DNA of 64,000 nucleotides from Neolewinella litorea (GTDB taxonomy: Bacteria; Bacteroidota; Bacteroidia; Chitinophagales; Saprospiraceae), in NCBI RefSeq assembly GCF_004803465.1, contig NZ_SRSF01000006.1, forward strand, positions 62,001 through 126,000, given 5' to 3'. A program made the position numbers and the translations under genes. Shown here one piece after another: positions 5,564 through 43,030 of this stretch. Every line of letters starts with the position of its first letter. Position 1 is the first letter of the stretch. Under the pieces are notes generated by a model. The model was not told where the DNA came from, searched no databases, and worked only from the letters and a program-made list of their open reading frames with translations.

Positions 5564-7699
5564 CTAGCGGTCGGCCACTCCCTTCTTTCCTTCGAGGCGG
5601 ATCATGTCCTCGACGATGTTGACGGCTTCGCGGATGTAGACGTCCTTGCTGACGCTCTGCTTGAAGTCGTCGTTGCGGGCCGTTTTGCTCTCGTCGGCCA
5701 GAATAGGCTCCAGGTCCACTTGGAGGTTGAGCACGCCGGGGTTCACCACGTCGTCGAAGAGGTCGTCGTACATCTCCGCTTCGGTGCGGGCGGCGCGTTG
5801 CATTTCCTCGAACTCCGTCAGGCTAAGGGGGTAGGTATTGCGGTCGCGTTGCCGCTTGACCCGGCGGGCGTTTTCTTCGATGCGATTAAAGGTGGAGCTG
5901 GCACTCACGCGGCGTTCGCTGCGGGCTTTGAGCGAGTCCATATTCCGGATGCGGTAGATGTCCTGGCTGTAGTCAGCCGGATCGATCTCCGACCAGGCCA
6001 GGGGGAAGATCTGCTCCTTCTCGCCGGTTTCGAGCAGCGAGCGGCTGTCGGGCAGGACGATATCGGGAGTCACCCCGCGCAGCTGGGTGGAGCCGCCGTT
6101 AATGCGATAGAATTTCTGCATCGTCAGCTTGACGGTACCGAGGGGCTTCACGTCGTTGTGGCCGGCGATGGTGCGGTCCATGTCGATGAAGCGCTGTACC
6201 GTACCCTTGCCGAAGGTGGAGTTGCTGCCTACGATCACGGCCCGACCGTAGTCCTGCAGCGCGGCGGCCAGGATCTCACTGGCGGAGGCGGAGTACTGGT
6301 TAACGAGCACCACCAGGGGGCCGTCGTACTGGACGCGGCGGTCTTTGTCTTTCAGGATTTCCTTGTCCATGCCGCGGCCGGCTACCTGTACCACGGGGCC
6401 TTCGGGGATGAAGAAGCCGGTCATATCCACCACGTCGCGCAGCGATCCACCGCCGTTGTTACGCAGGTCAAGGATGATGCCATCGACGTCCTGATCCTTC
6501 AGTTTTTCCAGTTCGGCCTCGACGTCCTTGGCGCTGAAGCGACCGTCGGCGTTCTCGAAGTCGGCGTAGAAGCTGGGCAGGGATATGTAGCCGATCTTTT
6601 CGTTGCCCTCCTCGTCGTCGATGATGAGCGACTTGGCGTAGGTCTCGTCGATGATGATCACGTCGCGCTCGATGGAGATGTCCTGGATCACGCCGTCCGG
6701 CTTGCGTACTTTCAGGTGTACGGTGGTTCCTTTCTTGCCGCGGATCTTGTCGACCACGTCTTCCAGGGGCATGCCCTTGATGTCGACCAGTTCCTGGCCG
6801 TCCTGCCGCACGCCCATGATGACGTCGTCTTCCTTGAGTTCCTTGCCCTTCCAGGCCGGTCCGCCCACCACGATGGAGGTGACCTTGGTGTATTCATCGT
6901 CGGTTTGTAGCGTGGCGCCAATGCCTTCCAGGCGGCCGCTGAAGCGGATGTCGAAGGACTCTTTGTCCTTGGGCCGGAAGTAGCTGGTATGCGGGTCGAA
7001 TACGGCCGTCATGGCGTTGAGGTACTGGCCCTCCTTGATGCTCGGCTTCATTTCCCGCATCCGCTTGAACCAGTCGTGGTAGCGTTCGAGGATCTTGCCG
7101 CGGTATTCCGTTTCGAGGCTGTCGAGGCTGGGGAACTCCTGGCCGGTGGTGTCGCGTTCGATTTCTTCGCGCTTTTCGACGATCTGGTTGATCACGTCGC
7201 GCTTCATGTAGTCGTGCCAGTACTGCTTCAGTTCGGCGTCGCTGGCGGCCCAGGGGGAGGTTTCGTCGCGGTCGGTGAAGGTGCCTTCGGCATCGAGGTC
7301 AAAGGGTTCGGCGAGAATCTCCTCGTACCACGCCTGGGTCTTGTCGAGGGCGGCCATCCAGCGTTCCTGTACCAGGTTGTAAAAGGTGAACTCCCCGGCC
7401 TTGCTCTGATCGTCGATTTCCGTGCGGTACTTGGAGAAGGCGGCAATGTCATCCTGGGTAAAGAACAGGCGAGCGCCGTCGACGTCGTTCAGGTACTGGT
7501 CAAAGACCCGCTCGGAAAATTTGTCGTTGATGTCGACCGGCTGGTAGTGATAATTCTCCAGGTTGGCGAGCATGGTGCGCAGGATCACGGAGGGCGCATC
7601 ACCGGGGGGCACCTGGATCTGATGCGTCGGCAGGGTAGCCGCGATCAGGGCAAATACCAGCAGGAGGGCGGAGAAGAGCAGGTGGGCTCTCGTTTTCAT
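5564..7699 (-). CDS. prc: Tail-specific (C-terminal processing) protease, S41 family
   Basis: A 711-aa periplasmic protease of the Prc/Tsp type that degrades proteins from their C-termini. The start is set at the ATG ending at 7699, which gives a signal peptide (residues 1-24, MKTRAHLLFSALLLVF); the frame is open upstream but non-coding in character. A large N-terminal helical domain precedes a PDZ domain (about 235-330). The S41 catalytic core includes QYSASASEILAA (nucleophile Ser near 470) and FGKGTVQ (general-base Lys near 497). The C-terminal ~140 residues correspond to the extension found in long Prc proteins. Length (about 700 aa) matches E. coli Prc. Confidence 0.95.
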   Translation of the reverse strand: MKTRAHLLFSALLLVFALIAATLPTHQIQVPPGDAPSVILRTMLANLENYHYQPVDINDKFSERVFDQYLNDVDGARLFFTQDDIAAFSKYRTEIDDQSKAGEFTFYNLVQERWMAALDKTQAWYEEILAEPFDLDAEGTFTDRDETSPWAASDAELKQYWHDYMKRDVINQIVEKREEIERDTTGQEFPSLDSLETEYRGKILERYHDWFKRMREMKPSIKEGQYLNAMTAVFDPHTSYFRPKDKESFDIRFSGRLEGIGATLQTDDEYTKVTSIVVGGPAWKGKELKEDDVIMGVRQDGQELVDIKGMPLEDVVDKIRGKKGTTVHLKVRKPDGVIQDISIERDVIIIDETYAKSLIIDDEEGNEKIGYISLPSFYADFENADGRFSAKDVEAELEKLKDQDVDGIILDLRNNGGGSLRDVVDMTGFFIPEGPVVQVAGRGMDKEILKDKDRRVQYDGPLVVLVNQYSASASEILAAALQDYGRAVIVGSNSTFGKGTVQRFIDMDRTIAGHNDVKPLGTVKLTMQKFYRINGGSTQLRGVTPDIVLPDSRSLLETGEKEQIFPLAWSEIDPADYSQDIYRIRNMDSLKARSERRVSASSTFNRIEENARRVKRQRDRNTYPLSLTEFEEMQRAARTEAEMYDDLFDDVVNPGVLNLQVDLEPILADESKTARNDDFKQSVSKDVYIREAVNIVEDMIRLEGKKGVADR

Positions 7700-37607: not shown

Positions 37608-38321
37608 TCAGAGGCGGGAAAGCACCTGGTCGCGGTACTTGTCGCTGATAGGTACGGCGTCGTCGTCGATGTAGACGGTCCGGTGTTCGTAGCGCGTGAC
37701 GTGCTGAAGGTTCACGGCGTGGCTGCGGTGGGTCTGTACGATGCTGAAGTGGTTGATCTCGGACACCAGGTCGCTCAGGGAACGGCGCAGGACAAGCGGC
37801 TTCTGGTCCACGAGGCTCACCTGCACGTAGACGTGATCGGCGCGCAGGTGGCGGATCGCCGAGAGGGGCAGGATGTGGGTAGCCTGACCGGTCTTCACGG
37901 CCACCGTTTCTTCCTGCTGCTGCGACTGGTGGTTGTGCAGGGCCACGTCGATGGTGGTGAGCAGGCTGTTGATCTGGACGGGCTTGCTGAGGTAGCCGGC
38001 GGGAAAGGTTTCGCGGGCCAGGGCCAGGTGCTGTTCGTCGACCTGGGAAGTAAGGTAGACGAAGGGGATCTGCTCTTTCTGGGCCCGGAGGAAGTGGGCG
38101 AAATCGATGCCGGATTCCGGTCCGCTCAGCCGAATGTCGAGCAGGGCCAGGTCGGGGGGGGATTTATGGTAGAGTTCGACGGCTTCGTCGTAGGAAATGG
38201 CTTCTCCGGTAACGATGTAATTCTGTTCCCGGAGTTGGTCGGCGATGGTGTCGGAAATGATGAATTCATCCTCGACAATGAGTATGCGGCGACCGGAGGC
38301 GGAAGGGGGCGTCTGCTGCAT
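37608..38321 (-). CDS. LytTR-family response regulator
   Basis: A 237-aa two-component regulator. The receiver domain (about 11-127) has the acidic pocket VEDE (16-19), phospho-acceptor Asp62 in LALLDIRL, Thr91 and Lys113 in YLSKP. The LytTR DNA-binding domain follows (about 140-235; ADHVYVQVSL, THRSHAVNLQHV, PISDKYRDQVL). LytTR proteins bind pairs of direct repeats one or two helical turns apart. It lies 41 bp behind its kinase gene and the two form an operon. Six paired 10-bp sites at 21-bp spacing lie immediately upstream of the operon, between 40570 and 42751, and are the natural candidate targets. Confidence 0.95.
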   Translation of the reverse strand: MQQTPPSASGRRILIVEDEFIISDTIADQLREQNYIVTGEAISYDEAVELYHKSPPDLALLDIRLSGPESGIDFAHFLRAQKEQIPFVYLTSQVDEQHLALARETFPAGYLSKPVQINSLLTTIDVALHNHQSQQQEETVAVKTGQATHILPLSAIRHLRADHVYVQVSLVDQKPLVLRRSLSDLVSEINHFSIVQTHRSHAVNLQHVTRYEHRTVYIDDDAVPISDKYRDQVLSRL

Positions 38322-38362: not shown

Positions 38363-40219
38363 TTAGGCGGTAATCGGTGCCTCCAAGGTAGTAATTCTGT
38401 CTTTTCCCGTGGGCTGACCAAGGTGTTCGTTCTTGCGCCGGAACCAGATGCGGGTGGTGGCGCCATTCTCGTTGGAGACCTCGACCCGGCCCCGCAATTG
38501 CCGGCTCATTCCCCGGATCAGGTAACTACCGAGTCCGCTGTCCCGACCATCCAGGGCGGCGGGGTCAAATCCGGGGCCGTTATCGTGGTACGTGAGCAGG
38601 AGTTCGTCGTCGTTTTCGGTGAGCGTAACGCTGATGCGCAATTGCTGGCCGGGAACTACGGCGTACTTGAAGCTGTTGGTGAGCAGTTCGTTGAACATGG
38701 TGCCCAGTGGGATGGCCGTTTCGAGGTTGAACCAGAAATCGCCGACGTCGAGGTCGAAATGGGAGGCGTGGGGCAGTTCCGACAGCATTTCAAAGTGGTG
38801 ACAGATCTTGGTAGCGTAGGTGCGGAAGTTGATCTCACCTACCCGACCTTGCTGGTAGAGGATCTCGTGGACGGCGGCCATACTGTATACCCTTCCCGCC
38901 ATGGCGTCCAGTTGGGCCCGCGCGGCGGGGTCGTTGAGCTTTTTCATCTGCATCTGCAGGAGGCTGATGATGATCTGGAGGTTGTTCTTCACCCGGTGGT
39001 GTACCTCGCCCTGCAGTAGCTTTTGCTGGGCCAGCGATTCGGAAAGCTGATCGTTTTTAAGTTGGGTGATCATTTGCTGCTCCAGGGCGTCGCGCGATCG
39101 CCGGACGCGGCTGGTGACGAGATAGGCCAGGAAGAGGATCACGATCACCAATACGAAGATGAGCAGGAGGCGGGCGATCCGTGAGCGTTCGTAGGCCAGC
39201 AGTTTGCTCTGCTCGGCGATGAGGAGACTTTTCTTTTCGCTGTTGTAGCGGTCCTCGATCGCGACGGCATTCTGCTGGTTCATCCGGTCGACGTGGTCGA
39301 GTTCGGCGTCGTGGGCCAGCTGCAGGTAGTGCCAGGCGGAATCCATCTGACCCATCGATTTCAGGATGGTGGCGCGGTAGTCGTAGACCCGATTCAGGTA
39401 GGTACTATCCGTTTCGATCACCTTGGCGGCGTAGATCAGCGAAGAGTCGTTGGCCTCCAGGGCTTCCGCCATGTTCCCGCTCTCGATCTTGAGGCCGGTC
39501 AGCACCAGTGTCATGGCGAAGTAGTCGCCCATGCTGCCGGTGTTGTAATAGTAGTCGGTTGCTTCCTGGAGGTGCTCCTCGCTGGCCTGGAGGTCCTTTT
39601 CGCGGTAGTAGAAGCTCAGGTTGAAATGTGCCAGGGCTATTTGGTGGGCATTGTTTTGCTCTTTGGCGCTCGTCAGGGCTTCCGAAGCATGGTCGTACAC
39701 TTTTTCCGTTTCGCCGAAGTAGCGGTGGTAACCGGCCATGCGGTTGTGCAGGATGGGGACGAGCGTCCGCAGTCCATGCTGACGGATAATCGCATCCGCC
39801 TGCTGCAACAGGGAGAGGCACTCCTGGGGTTGCTGCTGATGCTGGTGGATGAAGGCCAGCCAGATATAGGCTTCCGCCAGAATGGAATGCCGCTGGGACT
39901 GTTGGGCATCGTCGATGAGGCGCAGCAGTTTCTGGGTGGCTTCGCCGAAGCGCCGGGCCCGGAGGAGGGCGTTGCAGTGCTTCAGGCGAATGAGCAGGCG
40001 GAAATTGTCGACCCACGGTTCGGTGTCCTCACACGCCAGGGAAGCGTTAAGTTGGTTCAGCACGGTTATTGCGCTGTCGTTCTTACTTGCCGTGATCAGG
40101 TCCTCAGCGGTGAAGAGCTGGCGCCACATGTTCTCGCTCTGTCCGTGCACCAGAGCGCACGGGAGCAGCAGAATGTACAGCAGCAGGATTTTGGTTGGGT
40201 TCACGCTAGGTATTTTCAT
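38363..40219 (-). CDS. Sensor histidine kinase with periplasmic TPR domain, HisKA_2 type
   Basis: A 618-aa membrane kinase. Signal peptide 1-26; a helical TPR-type sensor region (about 60-330) faces the periplasm; one TM helix (about 347-370, RLLLIFVLVIVILFLAYLV). The phospho-acceptor box is EVHHRVKNNLQ (about 409-419), the HisKA_2 form, and the ATPase domain has FNELLTNSFKYA (N box) and DNGPGFD plus GLGSYLI (G boxes). It phosphorylates the LytTR regulator encoded 41 bp downstream. The TPR sensor suggests a protein or peptide ligand. A TACCTTTA box at 40279-40286 and a site pair with a weaker box at 40524 lie upstream. Confidence 0.95.
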   Translation of the reverse strand: MKIPSVNPTKILLLYILLLPCALVHGQSENMWRQLFTAEDLITASKNDSAITVLNQLNASLACEDTEPWVDNFRLLIRLKHCNALLRARRFGEATQKLLRLIDDAQQSQRHSILAEAYIWLAFIHQHQQQPQECLSLLQQADAIIRQHGLRTLVPILHNRMAGYHRYFGETEKVYDHASEALTSAKEQNNAHQIALAHFNLSFYYREKDLQASEEHLQEATDYYYNTGSMGDYFAMTLVLTGLKIESGNMAEALEANDSSLIYAAKVIETDSTYLNRVYDYRATILKSMGQMDSAWHYLQLAHDAELDHVDRMNQQNAVAIEDRYNSEKKSLLIAEQSKLLAYERSRIARLLLIFVLVIVILFLAYLVTSRVRRSRDALEQQMITQLKNDQLSESLAQQKLLQGEVHHRVKNNLQIIISLLQMQMKKLNDPAARAQLDAMAGRVYSMAAVHEILYQQGRVGEINFRTYATKICHHFEMLSELPHASHFDLDVGDFWFNLETAIPLGTMFNELLTNSFKYAVVPGQQLRISVTLTENDDELLLTYHDNGPGFDPAALDGRDSGLGSYLIRGMSRQLRGRVEVSNENGATTRIWFRRKNEHLGQPTGKDRITTLEAPITA

Positions 40220-40278
40220 GAGGGGGGTCAGTAAACCCAGACTGGTCCTGACCGCAACCCACCAAATACTTGGACGGA

Positions 40279-40286
40279 TAAAGGTA
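40279..40286 (-). promoter_or_regulatory. Proximal -7 box of the kinase/regulator operon
   Basis: TACCTTTA on the minus strand about 60 bp before the kinase ATG at 40219. It would give a leader of about 50 nt, independent of the farther site-pair promoter at 40524. Confidence 0.35.
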
Positions 40287-40523
40287 CGGCCAACAACTTA
40301 TTAGGTAGTCTTCCGAATCGATCGCTCGCCGTCTCGCCGTCAGCTTTTCCTACCGTGACCGGAGAGGGTAAAGGCGCGCGGTAGGGAAAGGTCGTTCGGG
40401 TCAATGGGTCAAATCTGAAAGACAGTTTGATAATGCAACTAAAAGGCTTTCCTGAATGATCAGGGAAACGGCAAGGAATGGCGGCATAGCCAAATATTAC
40501 CGGTATGACCAATTAGTGTAAGT

Positions 40524-40600
40524 GTAAATTACTCCTCTCAAGCCCGTCACTACCATCATAGGGGAGGCATGTTCTGAATAGGGAACTGCCTGTTCTGAAT
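40524..40600 (-). promoter_or_regulatory. Paired operator and weak -7 box, site 7 (in front of the kinase operon)
   Basis: ATTCAGAACA (minus) at 40591-40600 and 40570-40579, 21 bp apart. A box TAATTTAC (a weaker TAnnTTTG) lies at 40524-40531, 38 bp on, the same geometry as the RNA units. A transcript from here would run toward the kinase gene at 40219 with a leader of about 300 nt, or end at a weak hairpin near 40440-40462. Confidence 0.6.
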
Positions 40601-40663
40601 CCGGCAGTTTACCGGTTAGGATCACCGGTGAGGGTTGGCGCGGGCGGCTCAGGGAATGCCTTT

Positions 40664-40700
40664 AAAAGGATCCGCCCGGGCCACCAATGTGGTCCGGGCG
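40664..40700 (-). terminator. Terminator of RNA unit 6
   Basis: Stem CGCCCGGxCC (40673-40682 with 40691-40700) followed on the minus strand by GATCCTTTTAAAGG. The T-run is short, so this is the weakest terminator of the array. Confidence 0.5.
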
Positions 40701-40875
40701 AACAAAAATTCCAAATCCAATTCGTTTCTGGGACATTGATTTTCAGCATCTGTGGGTGAAAATCGTGAGTCCGTAGTGTCTCTGTACGCTCTGCTTATAA
40801 ACTAGTTTCGGGATTAAAAACTCGCTCTCTCTCTGTCAATTACCGCAGTTTGCAGTAACGCTCTTTTCTTATGAT
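40664..40875 (-). ncRNA. Putative small RNA 6 of the array (about 212 nt)
   Basis: Bounded by the TATGTTTG box at 40880-40887 and a hairpin-T-run at 40664-40700. It carries an ACAGAGACAC element and a purine-rich GACAGAGAGAGAG stretch, and the motif TTTTTAATCCCGAAA that units 4 and 5 share in the form TnATnATCCCnAA. The start and end are inferred from the box and the hairpin. No convincing open frame. Confidence 0.6.
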
Positions 40876-40879
40876 GATA

Positions 40880-40957
40880 CAAACATATTTCACCCGGGCC
40901 GCTCCCGCGTACTATCCGAAGCTGGATGTTCTGAACCCGGGGCAGGGTGTTCTGAAT
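40880..40957 (-). promoter_or_regulatory. Paired operator and -7 box, RNA unit 6
   Basis: Sites at 40948-40957 (ATTCAGAACA) and 40927-40936 (GTTCAGAACA), 21 bp apart; -7 box TATGTTTG at 40880-40887, 39 bp downstream of the near site. Confidence 0.7.
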
Positions 40958-41091
40958 CCGGTGGAATACCCAACGCGGGCCGGTGGGGGGGCGGAGGTTT
41001 GCGTGTTTTTTCACCGGCACAGGTAGTGGCGGCTCGTACCCGACGTGCCCGAAGTATGCTGGATACTGTACTGCCCCACCAGGGTTCGGGC

Positions 41092-41132
41092 CAAAAAGAA
41101 ACCGCCCTGACCGTGCGAGGATCAGGGCGGTT
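41092..41132 (-). terminator. Terminator of RNA unit 5
   Basis: Perfect 11-bp stem AACCGCCCTGA (41099-41109 with 41122-41132), 12-nt loop, then TTCTTTTTGG on the minus strand. Confidence 0.8.
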
Positions 41133-41314
41133 AAATAACTCTAACTGTTTAGTAATTCGGGATCATAAACTCTTGTTGCGGTCCTACAAGATCTTGCGGT
41201 ACAATAGGTAAGCAAGAATGTGCGTGTCTCTCAAATACGCTCGCAACACGATAAAAAACTGGTCTCTCTTTATAAGACTACGTCTCTCTTTGAAGGCTGT
41301 GTCTCTCTTTGTAT
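41092..41314 (-). ncRNA. Putative small RNA 5 of the array (about 223 nt)
   Basis: Bounded by the TACGTTTG box at 41319-41326 and a strong terminator at 41092-41132. Its first 90 nt hold four copies of GAGAGAC (plus-strand complements at 41301, 41282, 41262 and 41226; steps 19, 20 and 36 nt). The farthest copy reads TTTGAGAGACACG and is complementary to unit 2 over 11 nt. The 3' part shares TnATnATCCCnAA and TAGAGTTATTnAA with unit 4. No plausible protein. Confidence 0.65.
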
Positions 41315-41318
41315 GAAA

Positions 41319-41396
41319 CAAACGTAGGTACATTGATTTCAAAGTGGCGAAAATTGTAGGTCCCTTGTTCTGAATCCGGGCCAGATTGTTCTGAAT
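41319..41396 (-). promoter_or_regulatory. Paired operator and -7 box, RNA unit 5
   Basis: Two perfect ATTCAGAACA sites at 41387-41396 and 41366-41375, 21 bp apart; perfect -7 box TACGTTTG at 41319-41326, 39 bp downstream. The box lies in a conserved block ATGTACCTACGTTTGTTTCA shared with unit 4. Confidence 0.8.
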
Positions 41397-41562
41397 TTTA
41401 GTAAAAGTTCGAACATCGCCCGATTTTAGCCGTACAACAGGGTTTCCTCTTCTTCAAGAACCGTTCGACTTTACGAAGTCGCATCTGGAAATTTCGGCCC
41501 GGAATGGCCAGCTCAACCGGGCGGGGGCACAGATTCAGAAAACGTCGATGAGCGAGGTCCAC

Positions 41563-41600
41563 CAAAAAGATCGCCCGGGCCATGTGATGGCCCGGGCGAT
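41563..41600 (-). terminator. Terminator of RNA unit 4
   Basis: Perfect 14-bp stem (ATCGCCCGGGCCAT, 41570-41583 with 41587-41600) with a 3-nt loop, then CTTTTTGG on the minus strand. Confidence 0.82.
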
Positions 41601-41746
41601 TCAATAACTCTAAATGCGAATCATTTTGGGATTATAACCTTGTGTCGTCGATCTGTGAAATTGTAGCGTTCTGGTCTCAAACAAGTAATGCGGGTGCTGC
41701 GGACTGCTGTACACAGCTAAGGGATCATCACTCCCTTGTTCGTTAT
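41563..41746 (-). ncRNA. Putative small RNA 4 of the array (about 184 nt)
   Basis: Bounded by the TACGTTTG box at 41751-41758 and a perfect terminator at 41563-41600. Shares the 5' block and the 3' elements TnATnATCCCnAA and TAGAGTTATTnAA with unit 5, so these two are close paralogues, but it has only a GAGAC remnant of the GAGAGAC motif. A 61-codon frame crosses the promoter box and has no start codon inside the transcript, so it is unlikely to be translated. Confidence 0.62.
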
Positions 41747-41750
41747 GAAA

Positions 41751-41828
41751 CAAACGTAGGTACATCGGTTCGAGAATCACGAAGGACGGGAGCATCTTGT
41801 TCTGAATCCACCAGGTTGTGTTCTGAAC
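41751..41828 (-). promoter_or_regulatory. Paired operator and -7 box, RNA unit 4
   Basis: Sites at 41819-41828 (GTTCAGAACA) and 41798-41807 (ATTCAGAACA), 21 bp apart; -7 box TACGTTTG at 41751-41758, 39 bp downstream. Confidence 0.75.
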
Positions 41829-41933
41829 TGAGCTGTGTGGTGGAAATTACATTAGGACGAGGTGAGAAGCGGCGGCGGCATCCGGGAAGCCGGGGACGCA
41901 GCCGCCAGAAGGTGTTTTCGGGCAGGCAGGGGG

Positions 41934-41974
41934 CAAAAAAGAACCGCCCGAATCAAATTAATGATCGGGCGGTT
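41934..41974 (-). terminator. Terminator of RNA unit 3
   Basis: Stem AACCGCCCGA (41942-41951 with 41965-41974), then TTCTTTTTTGCCC on the minus strand. Confidence 0.8.
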
Positions 41975-42086
41975 GTTGACTTGTCCAAATTGATGTCTCA
42001 GGAGATCATCAATTGGCTTGAGTACAAATGAAATTGTGCGTAATAAAAAGTGTCAAATCAAAATAGTGTCTCTCTAATCGTTGTCT
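41934..42086 (-). ncRNA. Putative small RNA 3 of the array (about 153 nt)
   Basis: Bounded by the TAGGTTTG box at 42091-42098 and a terminator at 41934-41974. Near its 5' end it has TTAGAGAGACACTA, complementary to unit 2 over 10 nt (GAGAGACACT). The body is AT-rich compared with the surrounding genome. No open frame of note. Confidence 0.62.
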
Positions 42087-42090
42087 GGGA

Positions 42091-42167
42091 CAAACCTAAG
42101 TCCGTTTTTGCCAATTCGGCGACTTTGGACATTTTTTGTGCTGAGTGGTGCCCTGGGTGTTCTGAAT
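42091..42167 (-). promoter_or_regulatory. Paired operator and -7 box, RNA unit 3
   Basis: Sites at 42158-42167 (ATTCAGAACA) and 42137-42146 (ACTCAGCACA, two changes), 21 bp apart; -7 box TAGGTTTG at 42091-42098, 38 bp downstream. Spacing is kept although the near site has drifted. Confidence 0.7.
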
Positions 42168-42334
42168 GACTGAACCGTAGCGGGAAAAAATGGGTTTCGG
42201 GCTCCTTTTTCTAAGGAGAAAGACCGGAAGCCAACGGCGGAACGGGGGGCGGGCATTTGACCGGGGGCGGAACCCAGAGGAATTTGACCGCACCGGTGCA
42301 TGCGTCGGGCGGATCTTTTCTGTCCGACTGGGGC

Positions 42335-42369
42335 AAAAATAGGGGGGTGCCGACCAGGTCGGCACCCCC
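42335..42369 (-). terminator. Terminator of RNA unit 2
   Basis: Stem of about 11-12 bp (GGGGGTGCCGACC with its complement, 42343-42369) with a tight loop, followed by CTATTTTTGCCC on the minus strand. Confidence 0.78.
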
Positions 42370-42419
42370 GTAAACACTGTTTTTAACACATTGAATTGAG
42401 AGACACTTAATCTTTCCGG
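42335..42419 (-). ncRNA. Putative small RNA 2 of the array (about 85 nt), possible antisense/sponge
   Basis: Bounded by a TACATTCG box at 42424-42431 and a strong terminator at 42335-42369. It is the only unit without the paired sites. About 10 nt from its 5' end it carries AAGTGTCTCTCAA, the complement of the GAGAGACAC element in units 3 and 5 (10-11 contiguous base pairs). Base pairing with those RNAs is inference. Confidence 0.55.
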
Positions 42420-42423
42420 GCGA

Positions 42424-42431
42424 CGAATGTA
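42424..42431 (-). promoter_or_regulatory. -7 box of RNA unit 2, no operator pair
   Basis: TACATTCG on the minus strand, 18 bp behind the T-run of unit 1's terminator. No ATTCAGAACA site precedes it, so unit 2 should be expressed independently of the factor that reads the site pairs. Confidence 0.45.
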
Positions 42432-42449
42432 CGTCTTCGGAGTGGCTGG

Positions 42450-42489
42450 AAAAAAATCGACCGAACCAATTTCACTTGGTCCGGTCGAT
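42450..42489 (-). terminator. Terminator of RNA unit 1
   Basis: A 14-bp stem with one mismatch (42456-42469 with 42476-42489), 6-nt loop, then a run of six to seven T on the minus strand. Confidence 0.82.
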
Positions 42490-42670
42490 CTGAAATTTAT
42501 CCAACCTGTATATTTTGGGGCAACGGTGCGAGAAATCCCCCGAACACGGGTACCGGGGCCGGCCGGTTGCAGAGGAGATGATCACCATTCACGCATGGCC
42601 GGGTGGCGGGAACGTGCTGTGCCGTAAATAAGACGACAGGGTCGGTGGGTATGCTTTTGTTGCTTGTGAT
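42450..42670 (-). ncRNA. Putative small RNA 1 of the array (about 221 nt)
   Basis: Bounded by the TACGTTTG box at 42675-42682 and a terminator at 42450-42489. The 5' end (TATCATCA) matches that of unit 6. The body is GC-richer than in units 3-5 and lacks GAGAGAC. A frame runs through it from upstream of the promoter but has no suitable start inside. Confidence 0.58.
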
Positions 42671-42674
42671 GATA

Positions 42675-42751
42675 CAAACGTAGGTACATCTATTGAGAAA
42701 GTCGCTAATTTGAAAACGGATGTTCTGAATTGGGAGTGGGGTGTTCTGAAT
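42675..42751 (-). promoter_or_regulatory. Paired operator and -7 box, RNA unit 1
   Basis: Two perfect ATTCAGAACA sites at 42742-42751 and 42721-42730, 21 bp apart; perfect -7 box TACGTTTG at 42675-42682, 38 bp downstream. Confidence 0.8.
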
Positions 42752-43030
42752 CAGGAAATACGCATATGCGTGTTCAACCACTAACCTCCGCGCTGGATCG
42801 GAAGACGGCACCTGCGGGCGCGGCTGAAAAAATGTCATGCTATAACCAGTTGAAGCTGACAAAATTACCGACGTGAGTTTTGGGTGCGCAGTTTGCCTAT
42901 CTTAATAGGACGCAAGCGGCGAACCGGTGTATAGCGTATTTCGGTTTCAGCTGCGACGTGCAAGGACAGATAAACCCATCGGTTGGTAGCCAGCCAAATG
43001 CCCCGTCAACCGACAGATAAAACAACGATT

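Follow-up and report, generated by a model that had tools for sequence, protein, structure and literature searches.

Which genes are carried by the minus strand between positions 42751 and 40570 of a 64,000-nucleotide (nt) stretch of the Neolewinella litorea genome (contig NZ_SRSF01000006.1; hereafter the window), and by what are they controlled? An initial annotation of this DNA had proposed a multi-copy family of small-RNA (sRNA) genes under one transcription factor. The answer that we favour, and to which we give somewhat better than even chances, is that a LytTR two-component system switches on a set of sRNAs that act by base pairing and join a genus-wide core sRNA in the control of type IX surface proteins; binding of the response regulator (RR), production of the RNAs, their pairing and the sign of its effect are all inferred.

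A search of the minus strand from 42751 to 40570 revealed six TTCAGAACA-N12-TTCAGAACA pairs with ≤3 mismatches, against 0.00 expected from 100 shuffles, the repeat starts being 21 bp apart within each pair, the repeats 9–10 nt long and the gap between them 11–12 nt. The whole source genome (G000) was found to hold eight pairs at this threshold, namely the six of the array and two weaker ones with three mismatches each. An exact TAnnTTTG, named in sections of PMC9723704 as the sigma-A consensus for flavobacteria, begins 69 or 70 nt after the pair start at five of the six window pairs, and the gap between pair and -7 box is 38–39 nt. At the sixth pair (40570-40600), the box is TAATTTAC instead (40531-40524; 4/6 positions matching). 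Both the six pairs at 21 bp and the -7 box 38–39 bp downstream had been pointed out in the initial annotation and were confirmed. A 5-of-6 box match at offset 69–70 was obtained for 20 of the 29 operators of the array set, which includes five histidine kinase (HK) promoters, and for 15 of 34 other operators, a non-random sample picked by hand from the fetched loci; every other offset gave three matches or fewer. The operator set used for these offsets excludes L065, L090 and the overlapping registers in L062, L071, L072, L076, L095 and L099.

Five of the pairs head putative sRNA genes on the minus strand. In unit 1 (42450-42682), the LytTR-type pair at 42721-42751 (0 mismatches) is followed by the box TACGTTTG (42682-42675) and a putative RNA of ~42669-42450 without GAGAGA. 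Unit 2 (41935-42098; pair at 42137-42167, 2 mismatches) has the box TAGGTTTG and a putative RNA of ~42085-41935 with one GAGAGAC, while in unit 3 (41564-41758; pair at 41798-41828, 1 mismatch, outside the 9-mers) the box TACGTTTG precedes a putative RNA of ~41746-41564 that contains GTTATAATCCC and is devoid of GAGAGA. The same box recurs in unit 4 (41093-41326; pair at 41366-41396, 0 mismatches), where the putative RNA (~41314-41093) carries four GAGAGAC copies and GTTTATGATCCC; unit 5 (40664-40887; pair at 40927-40957, 1 mismatch, outside the 9-mers) shows the box TATGTTTG and a putative RNA (~40875-40664) with GAGAGAGAG and TTTTTAATCCC.

A hairpin with a T-run follows each of the five pairs with an exact box, as had been announced, the T-runs ending at ~42450, 41935, 41564, 41093 and 40664, i.e., 233–304 nt after the pair start, and the predicted RNA lengths are ~150–222 nt. 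Applying the terminator rule to the non-HK units of all genomes, terminators were found in 23/24 units, including 5/5 in the window, versus 3.9/24 in shuffles (maximum 9), and with a stricter energy limit in 21/24 versus 0.2. The GC content of the array is 0.50, versus 0.59 and 0.61 for the flanking genes, with 0.38–0.52 for the RNA bodies, so the description of the region as AT-richer than its flanks holds. As in a multi-copy sRNA family, the window thus offers several stand-alone genes, each with its own predicted promoter and terminator, and the proposal of such a family under one transcription factor fits all five units. It does not fit the sixth pair, at 40570-40600, which lacks a terminator, has the kinase gene as the next gene on the minus strand and is taken as the promoter of the kinase operon, which would be autoregulated. 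Operators and anatomy of the predicted RNA genes are well supported by these sequence features.

The single transcription factor can now be named. Directly downstream of the array and on the same strand, overlooked in the initial annotation, lie genes for a histidine kinase of 618 aa (38363-40219; TPR region, HisKA_2 and HATPase_c according to Pfam) and a LytTR response regulator of 237 aa (37608-38321), whose Response_reg (PF00072) and LytTR (PF04397) domains score above the cut-off. LytTR regulators are described, in the part of PMC4847170 concerned with binding sites, as binding two repeats of 9–11 nt that are 11–13 nt apart. The window pairs share this geometry, being direct repeats upstream of a promoter at a fixed distance, and since the RR gene lies next door, we take the six pairs as candidate operators of this RR. 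Among 15 fetched related RR loci, some of which had been selected because they had a pair, 13 hold at least one pair (≤4 mismatches), L070 and L077 having none. A second HK-LytTR operon of the source genome (L064, G000:C1; RR 54% identical) has a three-mismatch pair upstream; this operator, at locus position 6346 on the minus strand, is accompanied by a TACATTTG box at the same distance and is without an array. Elsewhere in the family (L082-L100), the operator often precedes genes with secreted-looking products, as judged by eye from signal peptides, and 3/9 of such proteins tested end in a type IX sorting domain (Por_Secre_tail). The same operator before secreted-looking or type IX-sorted proteins perhaps indicates a LytTR surface-protein regulon.

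The array was also found in relatives. Beside the orthologous HK-RR genes, five pairs are present in G134 (RR 88% identical, same clpB neighbour), five in G006 (RR 57% identical) and seven in G122 (RR 58% identical); no clpB match was found in the fetched stretch of G006 or G122. In G137, one pair precedes the HK gene and one unit lies elsewhere, and two further units each lie elsewhere in G006 and G122. At least three pairs within 4 kb on one strand (≤3 mismatches) occur in G000, G134, G006 and G122 only, out of 21 genus genomes. Among these four, the RNA bodies diverge, and operators, boxes, terminators and a short motif stay together; the search in relatives that the initial annotation had suggested as a check has in this way revealed pairs of this kind at an unchanged distance from -7 boxes.

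The short motif is GAGAGA, which is found in 19/24 non-HK units (shuffle mean 3.5, maximum 9) and in 3/5 units of the window, in keeping with the shared seed of a multi-copy sRNA family; GAGAGAC occurs in 15/24 (shuffle mean 1.1, maximum 4). In exact form, the 14-mer CGTTGTGAGAGACG was found at eight places in G006 and at 11 in G122, always within operator-driven units, and nowhere in the remaining 19 genus genomes. The motif copies of G006 and G122 sit in a CGU...ACG repeat for which, judged by eye, folding into a short hairpin is conceivable. That every GAGAGA is presented by a hairpin was considered and does not hold in general, the unpaired share in whole-unit folds ranging from 0 to 0.88. 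Genome-wide, TGAGAGACG occurs 18 times in G006 and 22 times in G122, versus five and four times for the reversed control. Setting aside units and HK-leader elements, 19 places are left in these two genomes, 12 of them intergenic by reading, and eight of these make up four conserved pairs. A second element, T[AG]ATCCC, is shared by 8/24 non-HK units (shuffle mean 0.4); it lies on the minus strand of the window at 41638, 41170 and 40820, and also at position 1676 of L195, in an intergenic TGAGAGACGTTATGATCCC stretch of G122.

One of the four conserved intergenic pairs between G006 and G122 is a putative short RNA, ultraconserved in 19/21 genus genomes, that opens with the array's motif seed UGAGAGACG. 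Its gene consists of the box TAGGTTTA, then AUGAGAGACGCUGUGGACARCACAGUCGUAUAAY and then a terminator. The core pattern (AUGAGAGACGCUGUGGAC...) was found in 18/21 genus genomes plus G134, there with a 2-nt insertion, and in 0/377 genomes of other genera. The copy of the source genome lies at G000:C12:16027-16058 on the minus strand (L237), and 13 further copies were aligned with it. In the consensus fold, the 5' AUGAGAG is unpaired and the next ACG pairs in the first stem; two-sided changes affect 3/15 consensus pairs, all of them in the terminator stem. No operator pair (≤3 mismatches) was found at the core RNA in G000, nor among the matches listed for the genus search. A coding reading of the core RNA, as a ten-codon frame from ATG to TAA, was judged unlikely. 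The frame is broken by the insertion in G134, and, by eye, 3/14 aligned sequences have another stop or none at that position; in favour of the frame, an A-to-C change in L239 breaks a stem pair yet would be synonymous (by eye). No array or core-RNA locus matches an Rfam family at the gathering score, the only matches being two tRNAs (L061), and whether FopS, discussed below, is present in the Rfam copy was left unchecked; the one weak match, to Rfam ncS54 at 20.4 bits versus a cut-off of 43, was disregarded.

The complement of the seed, GUCUCUCA, points to candidate targets. A leader site, [CT]GTCTCTCA, lies upstream of the gene for a CHU_C type IX domain protein of 957 aa in 9/9 close orthologues (L244-L252). 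Eight of the nine have it 17–28 nt ahead of the codon that aligns with the first codon of the query; in G137, the alignment starts at residue 47, which leaves the distance unsure. The site is kept across all nine while the flanks differ, and it is found in 0/9 tandem copies beside these orthologues. Eight further CHU_C loci (L257-L264) are without an N-terminal alignment and hence uninformative. The four genomes G127, G130, G120 and G125 have the CHU_C site and the core RNA and no multi-unit array, so that this leader site accompanies the core RNA. A PorP/SprF gene likewise has the complement ahead of its ATG, at a distance of 25 nt in G000, 25 nt in G134 and 31 nt in G006; the Pfam run was on the G000 protein, the other two being assigned by matching N-termini. 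As a portion of PMC9143113 describes PorP-like proteins as the presumed anchors of type B CTD proteins in other Bacteroidota, the two candidate targets would fit together functionally, the two genes lying at different loci.

A complement is also found at the HK-RR loci themselves. In the window, TGTCTCTCA at 42405-42397 (minus strand) is followed by a hairpin (stem 42369-42343) and a T-run, together forming a short element (42343-42405) without an operator. One sense GTCTCTCA was found at each of five HK-RR loci, with a chance of 0.0025–0.0145 per locus; these chances are not to be multiplied, because the motif was picked post hoc and the five loci are relatives of one another. A GC-rich hairpin lies within ~80 nt after it at all five loci, with a five-T run behind it in the window and G137 and three or four T in the others. 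The element sits in the kinase leader in G006, G122 and G137, and inside the array just after a unit terminator in the window (at 42405) and G134. It is read either as a target through which feedback reaches the kinase or as a small RNA that acts as an antagonist. The site-less short unit noted previously is real; it carries the complement of the motif and may belong to the targets or antagonists of the array RNAs, not to their siblings.

Two further observations were made in the motif searches. A second set of intergenic stretches bears TGAGAGAC (L203 at 1752 and 2215, L216 at 1536, L224 at 1519, L185 at 1774 and L193 at 1390), several with a CCCCAC...GTGGGG hairpin downstream and some beside a macro-domain-like gene; this is perhaps another sRNA family. 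A CRISPR-like array (L207, G000:C5:3400-6400) comprises 45 repeat copies at 64–68-nt spacing and has one TGAGAGACG match within a spacer.

According to the mechanism we favour, the LytTR two-component system would control its own operon together with five short RNA genes that are reserved to it and arranged in tandem. The activated RR would bind the two direct repeats and recruit RNA polymerase to the -7 box 38–39 nt downstream, each array gene yielding a terminator-ended RNA of ~150–220 nt. Many of these RNAs would expose one or several copies of GAGAGAC, the seed with which the genus-wide core sRNA begins, and would thereby add to the core RNA's seed. This seed would pair with GUCUCUCA close to the start codons of messages that encode type IX surface proteins (CHU_C adhesin-like, PorP/SprF), and in three relatives also with the kinase's own leader, and pairing would alter, most likely lower, translation of the targets. 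Neither Hfq nor CsrA would be involved. Each was found in 0/20 relatives, a search that included G000 and G122 and did not extend to G134 and G006, and a system based on either protein was rejected on this ground.

Several results weigh against this proposal. In the window, exact GAGAGAC is confined to units 2 and 4, with GAGAGA in one more (unit 5, as GAGAGAGAG), and units 1 and 3 have neither, so that some of the units must work in another way. The excess of TGAGAGACR over its reversed control is weak in genomes other than G006 and G122 (13/6 in G000, 11/7 in G134 and 13/10 in G137, array copies included). Sense copies are also present at protein-gene starts, at the start codon in L211 and L217 and further upstream in L205 and L186, and simple pairing does not explain these. 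Pairing energies are modest: the element-unit duplex beats all but 10/200 shuffles for 8/24 units, and the duplex of the core RNA with CHU_C leaders beats all but 16/300 shuffles in 6/9, those for G130 and G125 being computed with the G000 core sequence. The CHU_C site is absent from four remoter homologues with an N-terminal alignment (L253-L256), and the array is known from only 4/21 genus genomes, which are mutually related. Finally, a cruder consensus scan for terminators (40200-43000) gave five sites versus 3.4 ± 2.2 in shuffles; at a count so near the shuffle level, that scan does not tell terminators from chance.

As a more specific and only tentative version, for which we would not claim even chances, the system may form a closed circuit, in which the multi-seed battery boosts the core seed and switches the display of CHU_C and PorP/SprF proteins without Hfq or CsrA, and in which a seed target lies in the kinase leader or in an antagonist RNA.

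The complementary element could also be read the other way round, the GAGAGAC copies acting as a sponge or decoy. What they capture would be an RNA that carries GUCUCUCA, for instance the element at 42405, or else a protein that binds RNA, in the way that CsrA is captured by CsrB. The repeated copies per RNA, lying within the possible CGU...ACG hairpin in G006 and G122, and the hairpin-bearing complement at each of five loci would suit such a role, as would the strongest unit-element duplexes (L066_5664, L071_6379 and L071_6021), which 0/200 shuffles surpass. We nevertheless hold it to be unlikely, considering that the seed has the same sense as in the core RNA, that its complement precedes mRNA start codons, as with a pairing sRNA, and that neither CsrA nor Hfq was found in the 20 relatives searched, G000 and G122 among them; moreover, an element within the HK leaders of G006, G122 and G137 may be just a target.

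Somewhat less probable still is that array and RNAs are real and GAGAGAC is an element for stability, processing or protein binding, with leader matches that are coincidental or act at the DNA level. This would accommodate the 5/24 units without GAGAGA, the modest pairing energies, the sense copies at some protein-gene starts and the second shared element T[AG]ATCCC. It agrees poorly with the mostly reciprocal orientation of the motif, sense in RNA genes and antisense shortly before start codons, and with a CHU_C site that is kept in all nine close orthologues despite differing flanks and in none of their tandem copies. That there are no RNA genes at all, the pairs being degenerated or duplicated LytTR promoters with chance hairpins, appears very improbable: the operators that precede secreted-protein genes in relatives could leave promoters behind and the crude terminator scan is at chance level, but terminators were found in 23/24 units versus 3.9 in shuffles, and operator, box, terminator and motif are kept together in four genomes while the bodies diverge.

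The LytTR-driven battery of pairing sRNAs that we favour can be compared with several known systems. Within the Bacteroidota, most work on control by small RNAs has concerned Bacteroides. Qrr of Vibrio and the csRNAs of Streptococcus are, as here, several sibling sRNAs under one RR, but their regulators are of the NtrC type and OmpR type, respectively, unlike the LytTR regulator of this locus, and Qrr requires Hfq, which was not found in the 20 relatives searched, G000 and G122 included. In the sponge RNAs CsrB and RsmZ, a short motif is repeated along the RNA, as in the array RNAs, although the array motif is not GGA and CsrA was likewise not found in these 20 relatives. The response regulator of VirSR is of the LytTR class. 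VirSR of Clostridium perfringens resembles the array in that an RR, two direct repeats and a fixed promoter distance serve a regulatory RNA target (VR-RNA); it differs in having toxin genes at several places among its targets, and the relevant sections of that account (PMC2838878) mention no RNA genes in tandem array. In Staphylococcus aureus, AgrA, a LytTR RR, drives its own operon (P2) and an effector RNA, RNAIII (P3), from upstream repeats, yet this is one RNA and not a row, and the RNAIII targets named in the corresponding part of the source are haemolysins (PMC4227749). Closest in the phylum are the FopS RNAs of Bacteroides, 14 sibling sRNAs whose shared seed binds near the start codons of SusC outer-membrane mRNAs, according to excerpts of PMC11697453. 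They match the array in being from Bacteroidota, multi-copy, with a shared seed, directed at surface-protein mRNAs and accompanied by a related single sRNA (GibS), and with them a multi-copy regulatory RNA family is already known in Bacteroidota. FopS differs, as far as those excerpts go, in its canonical promoters, perhaps with a regulator not yet named, and in its seed; the array has a LytTR-type operator per unit, stands in tandem beside the kinase and carries several seed copies in many RNAs.

Among the matches listed for searches of the literature on LytTR with small RNA, Lewinella, sibling sRNAs, sponges and the type IX secretion system, no such array was found. Multi-copy sRNAs in Bacteroidota (FopS) and RNAIII and VR-RNA driven by LytTR-class regulators in Firmicutes are already known from the sources cited, and what is new is that the RNA genes stand in a tandem array beside a kinase, each under a LytTR-type operator of its own, and that many of the RNAs contain several seeds. 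The locus has brought to light an ultraconserved core sRNA of the genus without an Rfam match. Every link is open to testing, since a regulator can be named along with its operators, the RNA genes, the seed and specific candidate targets, and there is a hint that small RNAs control type IX surface proteins. If the proposed mechanism is true, it suggests that the cell surface is reset by a single signal, by way of a burst of RNA.

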